The notes under the pieces were generated by a model that was not told where the DNA came from, searched no databases, and saw only the letters and a list, made by a program, of their open reading frames with translations. From Sulfurospirillum diekertiae (GTDB lineage Bacteria > Campylobacterota > Campylobacteria > Campylobacterales > Sulfurospirillaceae), in assembly GCF_002309535.1 (NCBI RefSeq), contig NZ_CP023275.1, positions 806,001 through 870,000 of the forward strand: 64,000 nucleotides of DNA, given 5' to 3'. This document shows positions 16,824-27,201 of the stretch, piece by piece (within the stretch, counting starts at the first letter, position 1; each line of letters opens with the position of its first letter). A program made the translations under genes and the position numbers.

Positions 16824-18149
16824 TTATTTTTGGTGTGTTTTATAGCGTTTAACCAAATGTTTTGGTGAAACACCACACCAGTATAAAAAGCTTAAAACAC
16901 GGTTGCGAAGGGTGGTGTAAACGATGCCTTCTTTCTGCCATCTTCTGGATGACGTTAAGACTTTGGATTTTAAAAGGGCGATCTTTTCACCTTGTTTTTG
17001 AATGCGTTTCATCATCTCCACATCTTCCATGAGCGGAATTTCTGCGTAGCCACCGAGGTTTCTAAAAAAAGAAGTTTTAAAAAATTGGGCTTGGTCGCCG
17101 TAAGGGATTTGAGAAAAAGAGGTGCGAAGATTTGCCATGGTTTCGATGAAACGAAGGACAACGTTGGCATCATCAATCCCCAGTGAAAAAGCGCCCGCTT
17201 TGTTTACATGTAAAGATTCTTGGATGAGCGTGTCCCATGCGTTTGGAAGCAGAGTATCGGCATGTAAAAAAAGCACAATGTCTCCCCGTGCTTTGCGTGC
17301 GCCTTCATTCATCTGGGAGGCTCTTCCTTTTGGGGCAAAGACGATGTGAACATCTTGTAAGGCTAAATGCTCCACCGTTGTTTTTTCCTGTGTGTCGACC
17401 ACGATAATTTCGTAGTTTTTATTTTGTGCCATCTCTCTCAAATGTGCTAGGGTTTTCAGCAGTGTTTCGTCTTCATGGTATACGGGGATGATGACACTGA
17501 TGTGGGGCAATGTGCCTAAAATACGCTGTGCGAAGTGTGTCAGAGGTGTCGTAAACGCTTTACATGTAAAAACACGCAGGTCATCCAATGTGTCGATGTC
17601 AGAAAGCATCGCCCCTTTGGCAACGCGAAGATGTGCCATCTTTGAAAGCGTTTTAGCATAGACATCGTTTTGGCTGTAGGTAATGCCTTTAAACGCCTCT
17701 TGGCAAAAGGTGTCAGCATGAAAACCAATGAGATAATACCCGCCATCTAGCGTAGGAGAGAGTAGGGCATCGTTGGAAGAAAGTAAGTCAAACGCTTCTT
17801 TTAAAAGGAGTTCATCCACTTCGGGAATATCCGAACCCACTAAAATAGCGCGTTCATATCCTTGTGCAAATACTGTTTCAAAGGCATTTTTCATGCGCTC
17901 ACCCAAGTCCTTGCCGCTTTGATACAAGAGAGGTTTATGTTCCACATAAGCAGGTAAAGACATACGTGCTTCATCATCATACGCCACGATAACATCGACA
18001 TCGTGTGGTAGCGTTATGCTGAGCAGTTGTTCACACATTAAGCGGTAAAGTATGGTAGCGTTTTCATCGCCAATATGCTCAGCAAGGCGTGTTTTTACTC
18101 GACCAACAAGGGGCGCTTTCATAAAAAGAATTAGTGCGTTTTGGCGCAT
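16824..18149 (-). CDS. Fused TIGR04282-TIGR04283 glycosyltransferase (arsenosugar/rSAM-associated type)
   Basis: The 441-residue protein fuses two families that are usually separate neighbouring genes. Residues 1-200 are TIGR04282/DUF2064 (ALILFMKAPLVGRVKTRLAE, then VGSDIPEVD and TLDGGYYLIGF). Residues 215-441 are a family 2 glycosyltransferase of the TIGR04283 kind (HISVIIPVYHEDETLLKTL, LFLHADTLLP, FMEDVEMMKRI-like). Both were named rSAM/selenodomain-associated and later tied to arsenosugar biosynthesis. The gene overlaps the kinase gene upstream on the same strand by 19 bases and faces away from the radical SAM-ArsM operon. Two palindromes lie in frame. Confidence 0.85.
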   Translation of the reverse strand: MRQNALILFMKAPLVGRVKTRLAEHIGDENATILYRLMCEQLLSITLPHDVDVIVAYDDEARMSLPAYVEHKPLLYQSGKDLGERMKNAFETVFAQGYERAILVGSDIPEVDELLLKEAFDLLSSNDALLSPTLDGGYYLIGFHADTFCQEAFKGITYSQNDVYAKTLSKMAHLRVAKGAMLSDIDTLDDLRVFTCKAFTTPLTHFAQRILGTLPHISVIIPVYHEDETLLKTLAHLREMAQNKNYEIIVVDTQEKTTVEHLALQDVHIVFAPKGRASQMNEGARKARGDIVLFLHADTLLPNAWDTLIQESLHVNKAGAFSLGIDDANVVLRFIETMANLRTSFSQIPYGDQAQFFKTSFFRNLGGYAEIPLMEDVEMMKRIQKQGEKIALLKSKVLTSSRRWQKEGIVYTTLRNRVLSFLYWCGVSPKHLVKRYKTHQK

Positions 18150-19222
18150 AAATGCCGCTCCACAATAGCGATAAATTCTTCCACACTCTTTACATGTAAA
18201 AAGTGTTCAACCAGCTCTATGCTCAGGTTTTCACACAGCGCATAGGCTTTTGTTTTGGCTTTTTTAGAACGAATTGCTTCAAGAGGTTTAGCTTTGGCAG
18301 GGACGACCAAACGGCGCGAAAGCTCTGCTCCACAAAAGCCGACACTCTGCTTTAAAATGTGTTCAGGTACGCCACCCACTTTTTTTTCAAAGGATCTCCA
18401 CAAGGCGGAAATGATGGGTTTGAATTGGAGAGGTTTTTTCTCAAAAAGGGTGTAGATTTCTCCCAAAAGGATGTGCGCTAAAAGTGTTCCCACATCAAAG
18501 CCCAAAGGACCAAATAAAGAGAATTCTGCATCGATGATGGCGAGGTTTTCATGCTTTGTCATGATAGAACCTGTGTGCAAATCACCATGAAGTAAACACT
18601 CTTTTTCCGTTTGAAAGAGGTTTAAAAGAAGGTCAATATTTTGCAGAAAAAGGGCACTTTTGGGTTTAGGGCAAAAGTAAGAAGGCAAGACTAAAGCAGG
18701 GTGATTGGCAATATAAGGGAAGATGAAAATATACTCTTCGCTGATGCGTTTAAGGGTGGTATTTTCATAGTAATTGGCATCTTGTTTTGGTGGTGTTTTA
18801 GCGTAGAGCGTTGCCAAAAATGAGCCCAGTTTCGTGTAAATGGAGAGCGGAATAAACTGATCTAACTGTGCGCTTTGCAAGAGTTTATATCCTACAAGGT
18901 CTTCCATCGCAAAGCAAAATGCCGCTTCATCACAATGGTAAAGGTTCGGAATGAAGGATGGTGCGATAGTTTTAAAGTAAGAGAGCGTGTGCATTTCCAC
19001 ACAGATACGCTCTTGGGGTAAGGGAAAATCTTCACCAAGCAGCCTAAGATAGGGCGCTGCGTATTTGAGTATGAGTGTTTTTCCCTTTTCATCGTAGAGG
19101 CGAAAGATAAAATTTAAGTTACCGTCTCCAATTTCACTGACATGCAAAGGAGCGTGGTTGAAAAATGTGTTTAAAGCCGTTGTTTTCTTGACATAGTCGA
19201 TCACCTCGTTTTCGGTTTGCAT
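18131..19222 (-). CDS. mtnK: 5-methylthioribose kinase homologue (MtnK-like)
   Basis: The protein kinase-like (APH fold) enzyme has LLHGDLHTGSIM as the catalytic loop and IIDAEFSLFGPLGFDVGTLLA-like metal-binding region, both close to MtnK (split here as HGDLHTGSI and GPLGFDVG). MtnK phosphorylates C1 of 5-methylthioribose. No mtnA or mtnB is near. The gene is coupled to the arsenosugar-type glycosyltransferase, so a 5-substituted ribose other than methylthioribose, such as an arsinoyl-ribose, is an attractive substrate; this is inference. I start at ATG 19222 behind GGGAGGA rather than the upstream codon at 19273. The IDAEF in place of IDPEF is a small departure from the family. Confidence 0.8.
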   Translation of the reverse strand: MQTENEVIDYVKKTTALNTFFNHAPLHVSEIGDGNLNFIFRLYDEKGKTLILKYAAPYLRLLGEDFPLPQERICVEMHTLSYFKTIAPSFIPNLYHCDEAAFCFAMEDLVGYKLLQSAQLDQFIPLSIYTKLGSFLATLYAKTPPKQDANYYENTTLKRISEEYIFIFPYIANHPALVLPSYFCPKPKSALFLQNIDLLLNLFQTEKECLLHGDLHTGSIMTKHENLAIIDAEFSLFGPLGFDVGTLLAHILLGEIYTLFEKKPLQFKPIISALWRSFEKKVGGVPEHILKQSVGFCGAELSRRLVVPAKAKPLEAIRSKKAKTKAYALCENLSIELVEHFLHVKSVEEFIAIVERHLCAKTH

Positions 19223-19434
19223 GTCCAAAATCCTCCCATGTAAAAGCGCCATTATAGCAAAAACAGTCAACAAACATTGACCGTGTTAACCTTTTTCTAA
19301 GTCGTAACAGTTTATCATGTCGGATAACTCATGTAATGGCTTAAGGTTTAAGCGTACATCAAAAGTGACATGAAACTGCTCTTTTTGATACTTCCCAAAA
19401 TCCTTACATGTAAAAATCCCTTTTAGGAGAACAG

Positions 19435-19884
19435 ATGAAACTTGCTTCATTGTTTGTGTTGCCGATTGCGGCTTTATTATTGATTGGTTGTGGTGGTGGA
19501 AAGGTTAAAGAAAACTCAAAATACAACTACATTACAGCGGATGAGACAGCAAAATTGATACGCGAAGATGCTTCCAAAATCGTTCTTGTTGATATTCAAG
19601 AAAAACCTGATTTTGATGAAGAACACTTAAAAGGCGCTTTGGCGACGTATGCGTACCCTGTGAAAACAGAAGATGAAAAAGCAAGACTAGCAGCACTTCT
19701 TCCAGAGATTAAAGAGGGTCAAAAAGTGATTATTGTTTGTCCACGAGGCGGTGGAGGAGCGGATCGCGCGTATGATTTCTACCTTTCAAAAGGTGTTAAA
19801 AAAGATAACCTTTTAACCCTCAAAGATGGACAATACGGTTGGCCACGCGATAAAGTCAAAGATGTTTTAGCCGTTAGCAAATAA
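19435..19884 (+). CDS. Rhodanese-domain lipoprotein
   Basis: The 149-residue protein has a lipobox (LLIGC, Cys19), so it is lipid-anchored in the periplasm. The mature part is a single rhodanese domain (TADETAKLIREDASKIVLVD, DEEHLKGA) with the active-site cysteine in VIIVCPRGGGGADRAY. Rhodaneses carry persulfide sulfur or bind oxyanions; in a metalloid module this could mean thiolation or redox handling of arsenic species outside the cell. It is the first gene of a run of overlapping genes (19435-27201) and is divergent from the kinase. Confidence 0.85.
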   Translation: MKLASLFVLPIAALLLIGCGGGKVKENSKYNYITADETAKLIREDASKIVLVDIQEKPDFDEEHLKGALATYAYPVKTEDEKARLAALLPEIKEGQKVIIVCPRGGGGADRAYDFYLSKGVKKDNLLTLKDGQYGWPRDKVKDVLAVSK

Positions 19885-20555
19885 TGTTCAAACCACGCAA
19901 AATCGCGATACTGCTCTTTGTCGGTATCGCGCTCACCCTTCTTTTTACGTGCCCACAAAGCCGAAACTATTTTTTTGATGTAGTAGGGCTATTTGAAGGT
20001 CTTGATATTGAAAAAATCAAAGCGTACATCCTCTCTTTTGGTATTTTAGCACCACTGATCTCCTTTGCCTTGATGGTTTTCCAAGCCGTTGTCGCTCCTT
20101 TGCCCGCATTTCTCATCACCTTTGCCAATGCGGCGCTGTTTGGTTGGGTGTACGGAGCCGCACTTTCATGGGTAAGTGCTATGGTGGGTGCCCTTTTGTG
20201 CTTTTACATCGCCAAGTTTTTAGGGCGTGAAGTGGTTGAAAAATTGACCAGCAAGATGGCGTTAGAGAGTGTCGATGCTTTTTTTGAAAAACATGGCACG
20301 TATGCGATTTTGATTGCACGTCTTTTGCCTTTTATCTCGTTTGATGTGGTCAGTTACGCCGCAGGACTGACGTCTATGAGTCTTCGTTCTTTTTTGATCG
20401 CTACGGGCGTGGGACAACTGCCTGCAACATTGATCTACTCGTATGCGGGAGAAATGCTGACCGGTGGTGCTCAAACGATTGTGTATGGACTTTTGATCTT
20501 ATTTGCCCTTTCACTTTTGATTTATTTGATTAAGCGGGTGTATCGTGGAAAATAA
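19884..20555 (+). CDS. TVP38/TMEM64-family membrane protein (VTT/SNARE-associated domain), first copy
   Basis: The 223-residue protein has about five membrane segments and the VTT-domain core FANAALFGWVYGAALSWVS followed by YIAKFLGR and LLPFISFDVVSYAAGLTSM. The family includes DedA-like proteins and is often found in operons with mercury or arsenic genes and rSAM/selenodomain genes; its transport role is unsettled. The ATG overlaps the rhodanese stop by one base and its own end overlaps the next gene by 11 bases, so the genes are tightly coupled. Confidence 0.85.
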   Translation: MFKPRKIAILLFVGIALTLLFTCPQSRNYFFDVVGLFEGLDIEKIKAYILSFGILAPLISFALMVFQAVVAPLPAFLITFANAALFGWVYGAALSWVSAMVGALLCFYIAKFLGREVVEKLTSKMALESVDAFFEKHGTYAILIARLLPFISFDVVSYAAGLTSMSLRSFLIATGVGQLPATLIYSYAGEMLTGGAQTIVYGLLILFALSLLIYLIKRVYRGK

Positions 20556-21648
20556 AATCAAAGCGTATGAGCGTGAGTGTGTGGATTGTAGGAGTTGTAT
20601 GAAGGGTTGTCCGATGTTGTACAGCTTTACCATCTCTCCCAAAAAATTGCTCACCAAATTCACCACGGAGATTCCAAGCTCTCAGATGGCGTTTTCATGC
20701 GCAAATTGTGGTTTATGTGCACATGCATGTCCACGTGATATTGACTTTGGCGCGATCTTTACGGCTTCTAAGAAGAACTACGCTGAAGATAAAAAAGTGT
20801 TGAAAAAGTATGGCTATGGTGGCGTGATATTCCATCAAAAAAGTAGTTTTTCAAAACTTTTTTCTACTACAAAAAAGTTTACAACTGGAGAGTACACCCA
20901 TATGGCATTTATGCCTGGATGTGCGCTAAGCTCGTACTCTCCGAACCTCGTTCACACCGTTTTTAATTACTTACAATCCAAATGTTCTGGCATTGGTATC
21001 ATTCAACAATGCTGTGGCACACCCACTCGTGTTATGGGCGATATGGCACAATTTAAAATCTACCACTCACAGCTTGAAGCAGACCTAGATAAAATGGGTG
21101 CGACCACCGTTGTGACAGCCTGTGAAAACTGTTTTATGAGCATTAAAACCTATGCCCCACATATTAAAATCGTTTCACTTTATTCACTGTTAGCGCAGAT
21201 TGGACTTCCAGAAAGCGCCAAAGACCGCCATAAAAATACCCTGAAAATGGCACTGCATGACCCGTGCCCCACACGGTATGAAAAAGAGATTCATAAAGAC
21301 GTTCGTACCCTTTTAGCACAGATAGGTTTACCTTTTGAAGAGTTCAAACAAAATCGTGAGAAGACGCTTTGTTGCGGAAGCGGAGGTATGTTGGAGCTGA
21401 CCAATTCTGCTTTAGCGCATGAGCAAATGCGCACGCGTGCCAACCAAACAGAGTGCGAAAGCATCGTCAGTTACTGCCAAAGTTGCGCGGAGTCGATGAG
21501 TCATGGGGGTAAAAATGGCGTGCATCTGCTCGATCTTATTTTTAACCCCACCTTTGAGATGAAGCAAAAAGAGCAGGGAACTTTAAAAAAATGGTATAAC
21601 CGTTTTACATCACGTCAAATGATCAGCGCTCTAAAGGATAACACATAA
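20545..21648 (+). CDS. Fe-S oxidoreductase with two CCG domains (GlpC/HdrD-like)
   Basis: The 367-residue cytoplasmic protein has two [4Fe-4S] ferredoxin motifs (CVDCRSCMKGCP near 12-22, CANCGLCAHACP near 52-63). These are followed by two CCG domains (QCCGTPTRV with ACENC, and LCCGSGGML with YCQSC). The layout matches GlpC, LldE/LutA-fusion and HdrD-type subunits that move electrons between quinol or thiols and a partner. In this operon it may reduce a metalloid-thiol intermediate or the radical SAM cluster; that is inference. The start is GTG at 20545 inside the previous gene. Confidence 0.83.
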   Translation: MENKIKAYERECVDCRSCMKGCPMLYSFTISPKKLLTKFTTEIPSSQMAFSCANCGLCAHACPRDIDFGAIFTASKKNYAEDKKVLKKYGYGGVIFHQKSSFSKLFSTTKKFTTGEYTHMAFMPGCALSSYSPNLVHTVFNYLQSKCSGIGIIQQCCGTPTRVMGDMAQFKIYHSQLEADLDKMGATTVVTACENCFMSIKTYAPHIKIVSLYSLLAQIGLPESAKDRHKNTLKMALHDPCPTRYEKEIHKDVRTLLAQIGLPFEEFKQNREKTLCCGSGGMLELTNSALAHEQMRTRANQTECESIVSYCQSCAESMSHGGKNGVHLLDLIFNPTFEMKQKEQGTLKKWYNRFTSRQMISALKDNT

Positions 21649-21680: not shown

Positions 21681-22289
21681 GTGATGTTTGTCTTTTATAA
21701 AAATGGCGTGCTCTCTTACGCACAAGTTGAGTCCATCAAAACGTTTGTACTTGGCTTTGGTATTTACGCACCGCTTATTTTCATAGCTCTTTTTACGCTT
21801 GCACCGCTTATCTTCTTTCCTGATGGTATTTTAGCACTTGCGGGCGGGCTCATTTTTGGCTTTGCATGGGGGAGTTTTTACATCATTTTAGGCGCACTGT
21901 GTGGCGGTACATTGTCGTTTTACCTTGCACGACTTTACAGCCATAAAATGCGTGAAAAATTGGCGCATGAAAAACTGATTCATTTTCAAAAAAGCGTTCA
22001 AAAGCATGGTTTTGTGATGATTTTACTGCTTCGTTTAGTCCCCCTTGTGCCGTTTAACATCATCAGTTACAGCGCTGGGTTCTCAACGATTCGCTACCGT
22101 GATTTTTTCTTTGCAACGCTTTTGGGTATGATGCCAGGAGTTTTAGTGTACGCCAATATCGGCGCGCAATCGCTAAGTTTTGGAAGCCAAGAGTTTTACC
22201 TCTCTGTGGTATTATTGGTTGTGCTAGTGGTGGTTTCGATGGTGTTAAAACACCGTGTAAAAAAGAGGTTGGAGCGGTATGAAAAGTAA
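21681..22289 (+). CDS. TVP38/TMEM64-family membrane protein, second copy
   Basis: The 202-residue VTT-domain protein parallels the copy at 19884 (GGLIFGFAWGSFYIILGALC, LARLYSHKMRE, LLRLVPLVPFNIISYSAGF). Reading upstream from GTG 21681, the frame stays open to 21645 and gives a normal first helix, IKKVILFLAFGIVMF, but begins with ATA overlapping the previous TAA. The true start may therefore be ATA 21645, a former ATG, or GTG 21681 or ATG 21684. The 3' end overlaps the radical SAM fusion gene by 11 bases. Confidence 0.78.
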   Translation: MMFVFYKNGVLSYAQVESIKTFVLGFGIYAPLIFIALFTLAPLIFFPDGILALAGGLIFGFAWGSFYIILGALCGGTLSFYLARLYSHKMREKLAHEKLIHFQKSVQKHGFVMILLLRLVPLVPFNIISYSAGFSTIRYRDFFFATLLGMMPGVLVYANIGAQSLSFGSQEFYLSVVLLVVLVVVSMVLKHRVKKRLERYEK

Positions 22290-25269
22290 TTGGCAACGTA
22301 TTGTTTTTGAAGAGAGTCCTATTTATGTGCATCGCCACAGTGCGGACTGGTTTGTGCCCAATGCAAGTGCGGATGCTTTGTTACAAAGTGAGGTAAAAAG
22401 CCTTACGTATGAGGCGTTAAAACGTCGTATTTCTGAACCAAATCCTTTGGTTTATACGCCAAAACAAACTTCTAAAACAGCGCTGCAAGAGTTTTGGATC
22501 CATCTGACCAATCGTTGCAATCTCTCGTGTACACATTGCCTTTTTAACTCTTCACCTACAGAGAAAGATACACTGAATTTTGAGTCTATTTCTTTACATG
22601 TAAAAGAGGCGTACACACTGGGTTGTCGGCTTTTTATCATTAGTGGTGGTGAACCGTTGGTACATCCTGAGCTGTTGGCGCTGGTGGAGTTAATTTTAGC
22701 ACTCAGTGACACCGAAGTGGTCATCTTGACCAATGGTATGTTGCTTGAAAAACTCTTTACATGTAAAGAGTTTCCAACGTCACGTTTGCACTTTCAAATC
22801 AGCCTTGATGGGCTTCCAAAAGAACACGATGCGATCCGTGGGCAGGGAAGTTTTGACAAGCTTGAACACAACATCGTTTGGCTTCAAAAAACGGGTTATT
22901 CGTTTTCATTGTCAGTGTGTCTGCATCCTCTGAATATTCAAAGTTTAGAAAAAATTGTGGTATTGGCAAGCGAACTTAAAGCTGGGCATTTGCATTTTTT
23001 ATGGTATTTTTCGCGTGGACGAGGCGTTGATGAAAGGTTGATAGACCAAGACATTCTCTTTAAAGCGCTGATAAATGCCTATGAAAAAGCGCAAAATTTA
23101 GGCTTAGTTATTGACAATTTTGAAGCGCTCAAGACGCAAATCTTTGCCCCCAAAGGTACGGTACATGACGGCTCTAGTTCGGGGCGAAGTTCCATCGCTT
23201 TAGGCTACGATGGACACTTTTACCCCAGTGCCGCGATGGTAGGTGAGAGTGCGCTTTTAATGGAAGGTGAGAGCATTGTTGAGGCGCTTGAAAGTAAGGT
23301 GGCTCAAGCGATTTGGGCGCAGTCCATCACCGCACTCTCTTCGCCACTTCGTTTTTTACTGGGTGGTGGCGACTTAGACCACAGCTTTTCTCATGCCAAA
23401 ACCTTGATGGGCGATGACCCGTATGAACCCCTTTTGGAGAAGCTTGCTTTGTGGATGATTTCACAAGAGGCGAAGCGATTTGAGCCTTTACATGTAAAGC
23501 CTGCGTTGTGTTTGGAAATGGGTGACATCTTGCAGAGTTGCGGCGCAAATGAAGGTGTGGCGCATACCCATGCGAACTGTCTACTTGCCACAGGCGAGAG
23601 CGAATCGTTGCGCCTTGTGAAAGCCTTTTACCATGACGCGGCATTGGAAGATAAAGAAGACATCCTCAACCCTGCGTGTTACGAAGAGCAGTACCTTTCG
23701 CACATTCCCTCCCATTTGCGCTTTCGTGGGTACGGCTGTGGTAGTCCTATCTTAGATGCAAAGCTCAAAATGGGTGAATCCATGCTTGACCTTGGCTCTG
23801 GCAGAGGCATTGAGTGTTTTATCGCCTCAAAACTTGTAGGGAAAAGTGGGCGTGTCGTGGGTGTCGATATGCTCGACTCCATGCTCAAAATCGCGCGAAG
23901 CGGGGCAGAAGAGGTGGCACAACGTCTGGGTTATAACAACCTCACGTTTGCCAAAGGTTACCTTGAAGCATTGCCAGAAGAAGATGAGCGTTTTGATGTC
24001 ATCACCTCCAACTGTGTGCTGAACCTTTCCAGTCACAAACGCAAACTCTTTGCAGAAATCTTTCGGGTGCTTAAAAAGGGCGGAAGGCTCGTGGTTTCCG
24101 ATGTTGTGTGTGATGTTGAGGCAAGTGCGCTCATCCGCAATGACGCAAAACTGAGTGGCGAGTGCATCGGTGGGGCACTCACGCAAGCCCATCTTTTAGG
24201 ACTGCTACGTGAGAGTGGTTTTGAGAACGTAGAGCTTATCAAACGCTTTTTTTACCGTGAGGTGCAAGGGCATATGTTTTACTCAATCACGTTTGAGGCA
24301 CACAAGCCAGACACGCAAAAGCAGGTCGAAGTCATCTACAAAGGTGTGGGCGAAAGTCTTGCATTAGACAATGGTATTGTGCTGTTTAAAGGGGTTAAAA
24401 CATGCATTGATGAGGCTTTGGCAAAGCGGTTGGAAAGCGAGCTGTTTCTACTGGACGATGATGGTAATGTCACCAATCAAGAGGGTCAAAGCTGTTGTTG
24501 TGCGACACCACCTGAGTCCAAACCAAGCCTTTTATTGACGCCAAAACCGACAGCAAAGGTTTCATTTAGCATAGCACCTTCTAAGAAAAACCATAACTGC
24601 ATGGTCTGCGCATCGGCGCTTGTTTACACACCCTCACCGCACGAAGTGACATGTTATTATTGCGGAAGTGTGAGCGTTCAAAGCGTTACATGCCAAGAGG
24701 GGCATTATGTGTGCGATGCGTGTCATTCCAAAGAGGCACTAGCCGTCATCGAACATATCTGTGCTACGTCTAAAGAGCGCGATATGCTCAAACTTTTTCA
24801 GCAGATACGAGAGCATCCAAGCATCCCAAAACACGGACCAGAGCATCATGCCATGGTGCCTGCCATTATCGTTACCGCCTATAAAAACAGCGGTGGGAAA
24901 CTTCCCGAAAATGCACTTAAAACAGCGCTTTCACGCGGCTCTAGTATTATGGGTGGTGCCTGTGGATTTTTAGGGATTTGCGGTGCGGCTTCGGGGGTTG
25001 GCATTGGCTTTGCGATTGTATTGGAGGCTTCACCCGTGGTGGCAAAAGCACGCTCTGCGGCTCAAAAGGTCACATACGCAGTACTCGGTAAAATCGCTGA
25101 GTACGAAGCGGCACGCTGTTGCCATAGAGAAGTCTGGACAGCGCTCAATATCGCTTCATCGCTCTCCGAAACCTTTTTACATGTAAAGCTTTTGGCACAG
25201 ATGGAAACGAAATGCGATCAGAAAAAGTTTAACCAATATTGCTATGGAAAAGAGTGCCCGATATTTTAA
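22279..25269 (+). CDS. Radical SAM - ArsM-like methyltransferase - DUF5714 triple fusion
   Basis: This is a 996-residue protein of three parts. Residues 70-380 are radical SAM with the cluster motif CNLSCTHC (Cys 80, 84, 87), ISGGEP at 121-126 and LDGLP. Residues about 465-735 are an ArsM-type arsenite methyltransferase: YGCGSP 485-490, LDLGSGRGIECF 503-514, VGVDML, SNCVLNLS 577-584, GECIGGA 627-633, FYSITFEA. Cys487, 579 and 629 fall where ArsM has its arsenic-binding cysteines. A CCC cluster is at 739-741. Residues 772-996 match DUF5714 with two CXXC pairs, HGPEHH 852-857 and GGACGFLGICGAASG 892-906. It sits mid-operon. The predicted job is methylation plus adenosyl transfer on arsenic or a similar element. 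Four palindromes lie in frame. Confidence 0.82.
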   Translation: MKSNWQRIVFEESPIYVHRHSADWFVPNASADALLQSEVKSLTYEALKRRISEPNPLVYTPKQTSKTALQEFWIHLTNRCNLSCTHCLFNSSPTEKDTLNFESISLHVKEAYTLGCRLFIISGGEPLVHPELLALVELILALSDTEVVILTNGMLLEKLFTCKEFPTSRLHFQISLDGLPKEHDAIRGQGSFDKLEHNIVWLQKTGYSFSLSVCLHPLNIQSLEKIVVLASELKAGHLHFLWYFSRGRGVDERLIDQDILFKALINAYEKAQNLGLVIDNFEALKTQIFAPKGTVHDGSSSGRSSIALGYDGHFYPSAAMVGESALLMEGESIVEALESKVAQAIWAQSITALSSPLRFLLGGGDLDHSFSHAKTLMGDDPYEPLLEKLALWMISQEAKRFEPLHVKPALCLEMGDILQSCGANEGVAHTHANCLLATGESESLRLVKAFYHDAALEDKEDILNPACYEEQYLSHIPSHLRFRGYGCGSPILDAKLKMGESMLDLGSGRGIECFIASKLVGKSGRVVGVDMLDSMLKIARSGAEEVAQRLGYNNLTFAKGYLEALPEEDERFDVITSNCVLNLSSHKRKLFAEIFRVLKKGGRLVVSDVVCDVEASALIRNDAKLSGECIGGALTQAHLLGLLRESGFENVELIKRFFYREVQGHMFYSITFEAHKPDTQKQVEVIYKGVGESLALDNGIVLFKGVKTCIDEALAKRLESELFLLDDDGNVTNQEGQSCCCATPPESKPSLLLTPKPTAKVSFSIAPSKKNHNCMVCASALVYTPSPHEVTCYYCGSVSVQSVTCQEGHYVCDACHSKEALAVIEHICATSKERDMLKLFQQIREHPSIPKHGPEHHAMVPAIIVTAYKNSGGKLPENALKTALSRGSSIMGGACGFLGICGAASGVGIGFAIVLEASPVVAKARSAAQKVTYAVLGKIAEYEAARCCHREVWTALNIASSLSETFLHVKLLAQMETKCDQKKFNQYCYGKECPIF

Positions 25270-25285: not shown

Positions 25286-26101
25286 ATGATGAAATATAAA
25301 CGTGAATTTATGGGTGAATGCTTAGGAACGTTTATGATGGTGATGTTTGGATGTGGTTCTGTTGCGGTGTCGGTGTTGTTTAATGCCCATCAAGGTTTGT
25401 TCCAAATAGCGATGATTTGGGGTATGGGTGTGAGCCTTGCCATTTACGCGGCACGTCATTTATCGTGCGCGCATCTCAATCCAGCCGTGACGTTGGCAAT
25501 GGTGATGAGCCAAAGAATGACGATCAAAAAAATGCCTGTTTATCTTTTAGGGCAGTTTCTTGGCTCTTTTGGTGCAGGTGTGATGGTATATGCGCTCTTT
25601 AATCCTTCTATTGTGGCCTTTGAAAATGCGCATCACATCATTCGCGGTACGCAAGAGTCCATTGCAATCGCGAAAATGTTTGGTGAATATTATCAACTCC
25701 CTAACACTGCCGCTATCGTCTCGCTGCCCTTGGCAATGATTGCAGAGGGATTTGGAACGTTCTGCCTTGTGATTATCATTTTTTGTTTGACGGAGAGCTG
25801 TAATTTGGGACGACCCGATGACAATATAGCCCCCATTCTCATAGGGCTCGCCGTCACTTCCATCATCTGCCTTATCGCCCCTTTAACGCAAGCAGGACTG
25901 AACCCTGCACGGGATTTTAGTCCTCGTATGGTTGCATGGATCTTTGGGTGGAAAGAGGCTTCTTTTCCTGATCAAGTTGGAGGTTTCTTTTGGGTTTATA
26001 TCTTAGCTCCTTTGCTTGGAGGCATGAGTGCTGGATTTTTATTTACATACCTCATTGAGCCTCTGATGCGCAACAAATGTGAAAAATGTGACTGCCAATA
26101 A
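25286..26101 (+). CDS. Aquaglyceroporin (MIP family, GlpF/AqpS-like)
   Basis: The 271-residue channel has six helices and the two half-helix motifs LNPAVT and LNPARDFSPR. The aspartate after NPAR is the mark of aquaglyceroporins rather than water-only aquaporins. Such channels pass As(OH)3 and methylated arsenicals as well as glycerol, and AqpS in rhizobial ars operons does this. The C-terminus ends in a cysteine-rich tail (CEKCDC), unusual for the family and possibly metal-binding. It follows the ArsM fusion by 16 bases. Confidence 0.87.
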   Translation: MMKYKREFMGECLGTFMMVMFGCGSVAVSVLFNAHQGLFQIAMIWGMGVSLAIYAARHLSCAHLNPAVTLAMVMSQRMTIKKMPVYLLGQFLGSFGAGVMVYALFNPSIVAFENAHHIIRGTQESIAIAKMFGEYYQLPNTAAIVSLPLAMIAEGFGTFCLVIIIFCLTESCNLGRPDDNIAPILIGLAVTSIICLIAPLTQAGLNPARDFSPRMVAWIFGWKEASFPDQVGGFFWVYILAPLLGGMSAGFLFTYLIEPLMRNKCEKCDCQ

Positions 26102-26112
26102 AAAGGATGATG

Positions 26113-27201
26113 ATGAAAACACGTATTATTTTAGTGGGTGGATTTTTGGGAGCGGGTAAAACTACGCTGTTGTGTGAGTCGGCACGAATGCTGAGTGAAC
26201 AAGGCAAACACGTTGGTTTAATCACCAATGATCAAGCCTCAGGACTGGTCGATACAGCGTTTCTTGAGCGTTCTCTCCGTTGCGTTACAGAGGTGAGTGG
26301 TAGCTGCTTTTGCTGTAATTTCAATGGTTTTGTAGAGGCTATCTCTCACCTCAAAGCAAAAGGTGCTATGGAGATGATTATTGCTGAACCTGTAGGCAGT
26401 TGCACGGATCTTTCTGCCACGATTATGCAGCCTTTAAAACAAAAATTCGAAGAGGATTTGATTGTTTCGCCACTGAGTGTTTTAGTCGATCCCGAACGGT
26501 TGAATGCTATACTCAAAGGTGGCACATCGGGATTTCATGAAAGTGCGGCGTATATTCTTCAAAAACAGCTTGATGAAGCCGATATGATTGTCATCACAAA
26601 AATAGATTTACTCTCACGTGATGCGCTTGAAACCTTAAAAAGACGAGTTGCCAAGAGATGGCCATTAGCTAAAATCTTCTCCTTAAGCGTTAAAAGCGGT
26701 GAAGGCTTGGAACTGTGGCTCGATGAAGTGAGCCATTCTACAGTAGCAGGAACGCACTTAGCCGAAGTGGATTATGATATTTACGCGCAAGGCGAAGCCG
26801 TGCTTGGATGGCTTAACACGACAGTCACCCTTCAAGGTCACTCTGTGAATTGGGATGCGTTCACGCACAAAATTTTAAAAAGCTTGGCAGAGCGGTTTGA
26901 TGCTTTAAACTTAGCCATTGGGCATGTCAAAGTGTTACTCGAAGCAGACAAAAAGTACGTGATAGGCAATGTGACAGGAACGTGTGAATCTCTTAGCATA
27001 AGAGGCAGTGTAGGAAGCGGAAATCAGGCTCAAATGACGTTAAATGCGCGTGTTGAAATGAATCCAGCAGCGTTAGATCGTATTGTAACAGAGGTCCTTT
27101 CTGAGGTATGTGGCAATGAGGTTACTCAAAAAATCGAAGCTTCAAAATGCCTGCAACCAGGACGTCCAAACCCAACCTACCGCTACGATTATGTCGTATG
27201 A
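26113..27201 (+). CDS. CobW/G3E-family P-loop GTPase
   Basis: The protein of about 362 residues has Walker A GGFLGAGKTTLL, the metal-binding CXCC of the family (SCFCCNF), Walker B-like IIAEPVG and the guanine motif TKIDLL. G3E proteins (CobW, HypB, UreG, YeiR) insert or carry metals. It ends the operon and suggests metal delivery to an enzyme of the module, though which metal is unknown. Three ATGs stand in a row; AAAAGGA at 26101-26107 is correctly spaced only for the third, at 26113. The end overlaps the convergent transporter gene by 13 bases. Confidence 0.85.
   Translation: MKTRIILVGGFLGAGKTTLLCESARMLSEQGKHVGLITNDQASGLVDTAFLERSLRCVTEVSGSCFCCNFNGFVEAISHLKAKGAMEMIIAEPVGSCTDLSATIMQPLKQKFEEDLIVSPLSVLVDPERLNAILKGGTSGFHESAAYILQKQLDEADMIVITKIDLLSRDALETLKRRVAKRWPLAKIFSLSVKSGEGLELWLDEVSHSTVAGTHLAEVDYDIYAQGEAVLGWLNTTVTLQGHSVNWDAFTHKILKSLAERFDALNLAIGHVKVLLEADKKYVIGNVTGTCESLSIRGSVGSGNQAQMTLNARVEMNPAALDRIVTEVLSEVCGNEVTQKIEASKCLQPGRPNPTYRYDYVV

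Follow-up and report, generated by a model that had tools for sequence, protein, structure and literature searches.

Which carbon-arsenic (C-As) bonds would a protein make that carries a radical S-adenosylmethionine (SAM) domain, an ArsM-type methyltransferase and a DUF5714 domain in a single chain, and by which route? Such a fusion is encoded in the window, by which we mean the whole 64,000-nucleotide stretch of the Sulfurospirillum diekertiae contig NZ_CP023275.1 analyzed here (positions 806,001 to 870,000). A review describes only two radical SAM reactions on arsenic: the adenosylation by ArsS, which belongs to oxo-arsenosugar biosynthesis, and the aminocarboxypropyl transfer by ArsL (PMC12159101). 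The conserved neighboring genes suggest that the fusion forms the C-As bonds in a sugar or lipid that contains arsenic, by a previously undescribed route. Judging from its sequence and its gene neighbors, it is probably the core that handles arsenic in a cluster of the arsenosugar or arsenolipid type: the ArsM part would methylate arsenic and the radical SAM part would make the next C-As bond, replacing ArsS. The evidence for arsenic is stronger than was known to the initial annotation, which had been made from the DNA alone, and the radical SAM part is not an ArsS.

The single-chain architecture proposed in that annotation was confirmed: the frame is free of stop codons over 996 residues, and the Pfam and NCBIfam matches agree on its layout (Table 1), the methyltransferase domain recognized by Pfam spanning residues 498-646 (2e-30). 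Besides the window's copy, 15 full-length ones, 65-90% identical, were identified in other genomes, which means that the fusion is not an artefact, a chance event or an assembly error; a scan of genome contigs with the single sequence as query gave one full-length orthologue. Residues are called invariant below when they are conserved in the window's protein and these 15 relatives. In a copy from the same species (G106, L057:8438-11424), two small indels, which may be sequencing errors, break the gene at the linker; the dicluster gene of locus L062 is likewise split, possibly for the same reason. The fusion was also considered as a selenoprotein, and this was rejected, since the split in G106 consists of a pair of small indels with no in-frame UGA; the translated gene of the window has no internal in-frame UGA either.

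The top NCBIfam match of the middle third is the arsenite methyltransferase PRK11873 (3e-61 in the whole protein; 207-211 bits, for a cut-off of 263), and in the PDB only ArsM enzymes match at better than 1e-20 (2e-37 vs about 1e-10 for the next family). The three cysteines that the initial annotation expected, C487, C579 and C629, align with those of CmArsM and are invariant in 16/16 proteins, C487 aligning with a position occupied by Ala in PDB chain 5eg5. A tree, which had few outgroups, gave no resolution at depth as to a grouping with ArsM or with other methyltransferases. That this third is an ArsM-type arsenic methyltransferase, acting on As(III), is well supported by these comparisons. 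The match to the arsinothricin ArsM model NF040538 is also strong and includes the C-terminal end. ArsL and ArsM being a known pair (PMC8552651), and the radical SAM domain not being ArsS, the latter might transfer another SAM fragment, for example the 3-amino-3-carboxypropyl group transferred by ArsL, giving an arsinothricin-like or other organoarsenical instead of an adenosyl arsenical; this is quite unlikely, since the linked glycosyltransferases and methylthioribose-kinase-like gene suit a ribose-bearing arsenical.

In the radical SAM third, which is well conserved throughout, GGEP is invariant, as is the CxxxCxxC motif. The auxiliary-cluster cysteines present in a Bacillota homologue (L206, described below) are replaced here by S299, S305, S317, a deletion, L361, D365 and E383. 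The sole family match of residues 293-383 is a weak one to CbpB (E 0.009), and the nearest profiles of the whole third are SPASM maturases and Rv1681/NirJ-type proteins. Separate profile searches of the three parts thus upheld the ArsM-type and DUF5714 assignments, whereas the radical SAM domain is, by sequence, a relative of the SPASM family whose auxiliary-cluster cysteines are gone, and not an ArsS. These profile neighbors would also suit a domain that has kept a SPASM-type role on peptides or proteins, either as a maturase or in self-modification of the fusion, with ArsM and DUF5714 serving detoxification; the full SPASM set of the Bacillota homologue and the RiPP-maturase-like radical SAM proteins found in clostridial operons carrying ArsM-like and DUF5714 genes are in keeping with this. 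Such a role is unlikely, however, since the domain here no longer has the SPASM ligands that peptide maturases usually carry, and since a radical SAM domain recurs together with ArsM and genes of the arsenosugar type in both phyla compared. It is highly improbable that the domain is a decaying passenger in a system of arsenic methylation for resistance only: every auxiliary-cluster cysteine has been lost, but the conservation of the remainder and the Acr3 efflux pump encoded separately elsewhere in the genome speak against it.

A profile search with the radical SAM third over 300 genomes of a second phylum gave one outlier, in genome G709 (171 bits over residues 67-398, the next best match reaching 114). 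This Bacillota protein (L206:400-2757, the same as L212:6909-9263) has 785 residues; an ArsM that keeps the three cysteines comes first and a radical SAM/SPASM domain carrying the full SPASM cysteine set second, and the chain ends in CCS. Near its gene are a TIGR04283 glycosyltransferase (148 bits, incomplete frame), a flippase-like protein, a dicluster protein and a VTT protein 59% identical to VTT protein 1 of the window over 145 residues. It resembles the fusion of the window in being its closest radical SAM homologue found outside the window's group, in having ArsM in the same chain and in its TIGR04283, VTT and dicluster neighbors, and differs from it in the reverse domain order, the complete SPASM cysteines and the absence of DUF5714. 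ArsM and this type of radical SAM domain have therefore been joined in both orders, in two phyla and in the same gene company.

In the window, the fusion is the last gene of an operon whose frames overlap or nearly touch (rhodanese, VTT, dicluster/CCG, VTT, fusion), a glycosyltransferase and a kinase-like gene being transcribed divergently from it. This order is largely kept across the orthologues, although in G365 the kinase-like/glycosyltransferase pair sits on another contig than the fusion. The MIP and CobW genes downstream occur only in the genome of the window and two near relatives; at locus L199, a MIP gene lies between the ArsM and ArsS genes. The TIGR04282 and TIGR04283 families carry the name of arsenosugar biosynthesis glycosyltransferases, and these linked genes point to an arsenosugar-type chemistry for the fusion. 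In the main survey, which covered 397 genomes from the phylum of S. diekertiae, the kinase-like gene (counted as present at a score of at least 220 bits against the window's copy) was found in 15/15 genomes with the fusion vs 1/382 others (Fisher p ~3e-26, kinship between the genomes being ignored). The more distant methylthioribose kinases of the phylum are longer and do not adjoin this glycosyltransferase; G360 is an exception, with such a kinase roughly 5 kb away from an ArsS locus. A separate CCG-type protein, a methyltransferase and a TrsS-like radical SAM protein are clustered at about 1.784-1.787 Mb in the window's genome (L003, L004); the fusion was considered as part of a Trs system, and this was rejected, the TrsS-like gene and methyltransferase being located elsewhere.

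The sole genome with the kinase-like gene but not the fusion, G023, also has the kinase-like/glycosyltransferase pair and carries a true ArsS fused to ArsM, adjoining rhodanese-VTT-CCG-VTT. Two-domain ArsS-ArsM fusions of about 660-705 residues are present in G023, G032, G334 and G360, so that ArsM and ArsS are not always separate enzymes; no paper on such fusions was found in our literature search. At L195:8607-10493, what reads as a metallophosphoesterase-like domain precedes ArsS in one chain of 629 residues. Classical ArsS loci contain VTT, CCG and TIGR04282/4283-like genes. In the genome of the window there is no true ArsS, the best match to the ArsS model TIGR04167 being the radical SAM domain of the fusion (53 bits). 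From G023, the shared neighbors and this search, it follows that the fusion occupies the position where ArsS and ArsM normally stand. Several ArsM-like and DUF5714-like (MbdU) families related to the fusion are selenoproteins, and the true substrate of this ArsM-like enzyme might be another element (selenium, antimony or tellurium); this is very unlikely, since the linked glycosyltransferase families match those at classical ArsS loci and the window's gene lacks the in-frame UGA.

The third part is DUF5714 (193 bits on PF18978, for a cut-off of 26.2), preceded by a linker and a RING-like module. The linker, initially described as CCC, is really C739-x-C741, since the middle cysteine is S, N or A in relatives while the outer two are kept. 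The predicted structure of DUF5714 is good, with a predicted local distance difference test (pLDDT) score of 88, and a fold search with it gave no PDB match at E < 0.001. Weak matches to C_GCAxxG_C_C, a putative redox family, were obtained in 5/27 DUF5714 members (best 6e-5) and serve as a lead only; no paper naming DUF5714 was found in the literature search. The domain scored over its cut-off in 15/397 genomes, all 15 of which carry the fusion, G106 with its broken gene being one of these. As the survey of fused and split versions showed, it occurs in 51/399 genomes of the second phylum (that of the clostridial genome G423, which we infer to be Bacillota), nearly always as a separate small protein. 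It stands alone, beside ArsM-like methyltransferases, with two other kinds of radical SAM proteins, or with thioredoxin genes. In the clostridial loci L116, L119-L122 and L124, an ArsM-like methyltransferase that has these three cysteines and a RiPP-maturase-like (ribosomally synthesized and post-translationally modified peptide) radical SAM protein are encoded no more than a few genes away from it, one such operon also carrying a thioredoxin/thioredoxin-reductase-type fusion. On a Paraclostridium plasmid (L100), it adjoins arsM and an ArsR-family gene, with a metallophosphoesterase gene beside arsM. At L126:4489-6519, DUF5714 is N-terminal to a TrsS-type radical SAM domain in a protein of 677 residues, a CCC motif preceding DUF5714. 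A second, clostridial subfamily (L133, L134, L141) has LGCENAW or LGCEHAW in place of HGPEHH, and no ArsM-like neighbors in the stretches read. In G013, which belongs to the same genus as the window's genome, only a DUF5714 remnant with a stop codon is present (L048/L058) and the kinase-like gene is absent. DUF5714 has thus gained the context that the initial annotation offered it; as to its chemistry, we infer that it serves the ArsM-type and radical reactions by thiol/metal chemistry or electron transfer.

Several results weigh against the fusion acting as a substitute for ArsS. Its radical SAM third, which had been taken to be of the ArsS kind, scores only 52-53 bits on TIGR04167 (cut-off 300), and DUF3641, which is present in true ArsS, had no match in residues 228-442. 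Despite the invariant CxxxCxxC motif, the loss of the SPASM cysteines could mean that the function was altered or lost. A first radical SAM tree favored kinship with ArsS (90/89), and wider sampling neither supports nor rejects it, the approximately unbiased (AU) test giving p 0.30 for the ArsS grouping and 0.42 for the L206 grouping; no kinship is therefore claimed. The model of the full chain by AlphaFold was too poor for use (pLDDT 62). The kinase-like protein scores 235 bits on TIGR01767, under the cut-off of 275, and a true kinase of a different genome reaches 482. DUF5714 is absent from ArsS-type clusters and is therefore not needed for the pathway in general. Lastly, canonical ArsS scored over its cut-off in 17/397 genomes and in 0/15 of those with the fusion, yet this zero overlap cannot be taken as mutual exclusion (p = 1 at these frequencies), and the draft genome G001, outside the sample, holds both.

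The reactions carried out by the arsenic-handling core might proceed as follows. The ArsM domain would bind As(III) on C487, C579 and C629 and methylate it from SAM, a step well supported by the sequence, and the methylated As(III) species would pass to the radical SAM domain without leaving the protein. This domain would then cleave a second SAM and attach another carbon group to arsenic, most likely 5'-deoxyadenosyl, in the stead of ArsS, as the genomic replacement and the fusion suggest. The Cys and His residues of DUF5714 may hold arsenic as a thiolate and/or pass electrons, compensating for the lost SPASM clusters. The later steps are speculative: adenine might be removed and 5-deoxy-5-arsinoyl-ribose phosphorylated by the kinase-like protein, in view of its likeness to 5-methylthioribose; the TIGR04282 part may activate the arsinoyl-ribose and the TIGR04283 part transfer it; and the VTT proteins, which are related to proteins that flip or scramble lipids, could move a lipid product. 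In its most specific form, which we put forward tentatively, there would be a second, ArsS-independent C-As route, in which a SPASM-family enzyme that has shed its auxiliary clusters and been joined to ArsM, ahead of it in one phylum and behind it in the other, adenosylates or otherwise alkylates methylated arsenic, DUF5714 being an in-chain arsenic-thiolate or redox site. If so, an enzyme from another radical SAM family, encoded among the same kinds of genes, would be the third to form C-As bonds, DUF5714 would be tied to arsenic chemistry, and a natural SPASM domain would be working without clusters. The cluster also suggests that bacteria of this group make compounds of the arsenosugar or arsenolipid type, which bears on the origins of organoarsenicals, and experiments could then address what the kinase-like, glycosyltransferase and VTT proteins encoded nearby do.

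Table 1. Features of the fusion and its surroundings (window positions), and ArsS-ArsM fusions at other loci
Feature	Position	Strand	Basis
Radical SAM + ArsM-type methyltransferase + DUF5714 fusion, 996 aa	22279..25269	+	open frame, Pfam, NCBIfam
Radical SAM core, residues 75-227	22501..22959	+	PF04055 9e-21
CxxxCxxC motif C80, C84, C87 (RCNLSCTHC)	22516..22539	+	invariant in 16 proteins
Degenerate SPASM region, residues 293-383	23155..23427	+	alignment with L206
ArsM-type methyltransferase with C-terminal ArsM subdomain, residues 442-735	23602..24483	+	PRK11873 3e-62 (domain alone), NF040538 5e-53, PDB 4kw7 2e-37
C487, CmArsM Cys72 equivalent (YGCGSP)	23737..23739	+	alignment, invariance
C579, CmArsM Cys174 equivalent (SNCVLNL)	24013..24015	+	alignment, invariance
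C629, CmArsM Cys224 equivalent (GECIGGAL)	24163..24165	+	alignment, invariance
Linker C739-C740-C741, only C739 and C741 invariant	24493..24501	+	16-protein alignment
RING-like Cys/His module: C774, C777, C792, C795, C805, H809, C812, C815, H816	24598..24726	+	invariance; weak RING-type matches in many members
DUF5714, residues 824-995, HGPEHH and further invariant Cys	24748..25263	+	PF18978 4e-57
Rhodanese-like protein, first gene of operon	19435..19884	+	PF00581; conserved order
VTT-domain (TVP38/DedA-type) membrane protein 1	19884..20555	+	PF09335 2e-29
4Fe-4S dicluster + CCG (GlpC/HdrB-like) protein	20545..21648	+	PF02754, PF13534; NF045663-like
VTT-domain membrane protein 2	21681..22289	+	PF09335
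MIP channel, aquaglyceroporin type	25286..26101	+	TIGR00861 over cut-off
CobW-type GTPase	26107..27201	+	PF02492
Methylthioribose-kinase-like protein, divergent from operon	18131..19273	-	TIGR01767 235 bits
Fused TIGR04282 + TIGR04283 arsenosugar glycosyltransferase-type protein	16824..18149	-	both over curated cut-offs, 169 and 240 bits
ArsS-ArsM two-domain fusions	L193:7502-9490; L194:8484-10505; L196:7086-9200; L197:7082-9082		

Among the known systems, the clostridial TrsS/DUF5714 proteins (L126, L127, L129) share with the fusion the linkage or fusion of a radical SAM domain to DUF5714, but TrsS is a Tes-like radical SAM protein, and the TrsS-like gene of the window's genome is a separate one. 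The model of MbdU, a metal-binding double selenoprotein (NF045648), covers the linker and DUF5714 of the window at 135-139 bits, far under its cut-off of 600, and the protein of the window has Cys throughout, with no selenocysteine and no second MbdU half. In the ArsL-ArsM system of arsinothricin, a radical SAM enzyme and ArsM likewise build two kinds of C-As bond (PMC8552651), whereas the proteins are separate, their gene neighbors are others, and the product class is unlikely to match that of the window. In the cyanobacterial oxo-arsenosugar pathway, ArsM first methylates arsenic and a radical SAM enzyme then acts on it, as proposed here, but ArsM and ArsS are separate proteins, and ArsS is of another radical SAM family, whose model the window's domain fails. 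The ArsS-ArsM fusions (L193, L194, L196, L197) differ in that their radical SAM domain is a true ArsS (TIGR04167, DUF3641) and DUF5714 is absent; as in the window, the radical SAM domain is followed by ArsM in one chain, and in G023 they adjoin the rhodanese, VTT and CCG genes that the fusion also has beside it, in the others glycosyltransferase-family genes.

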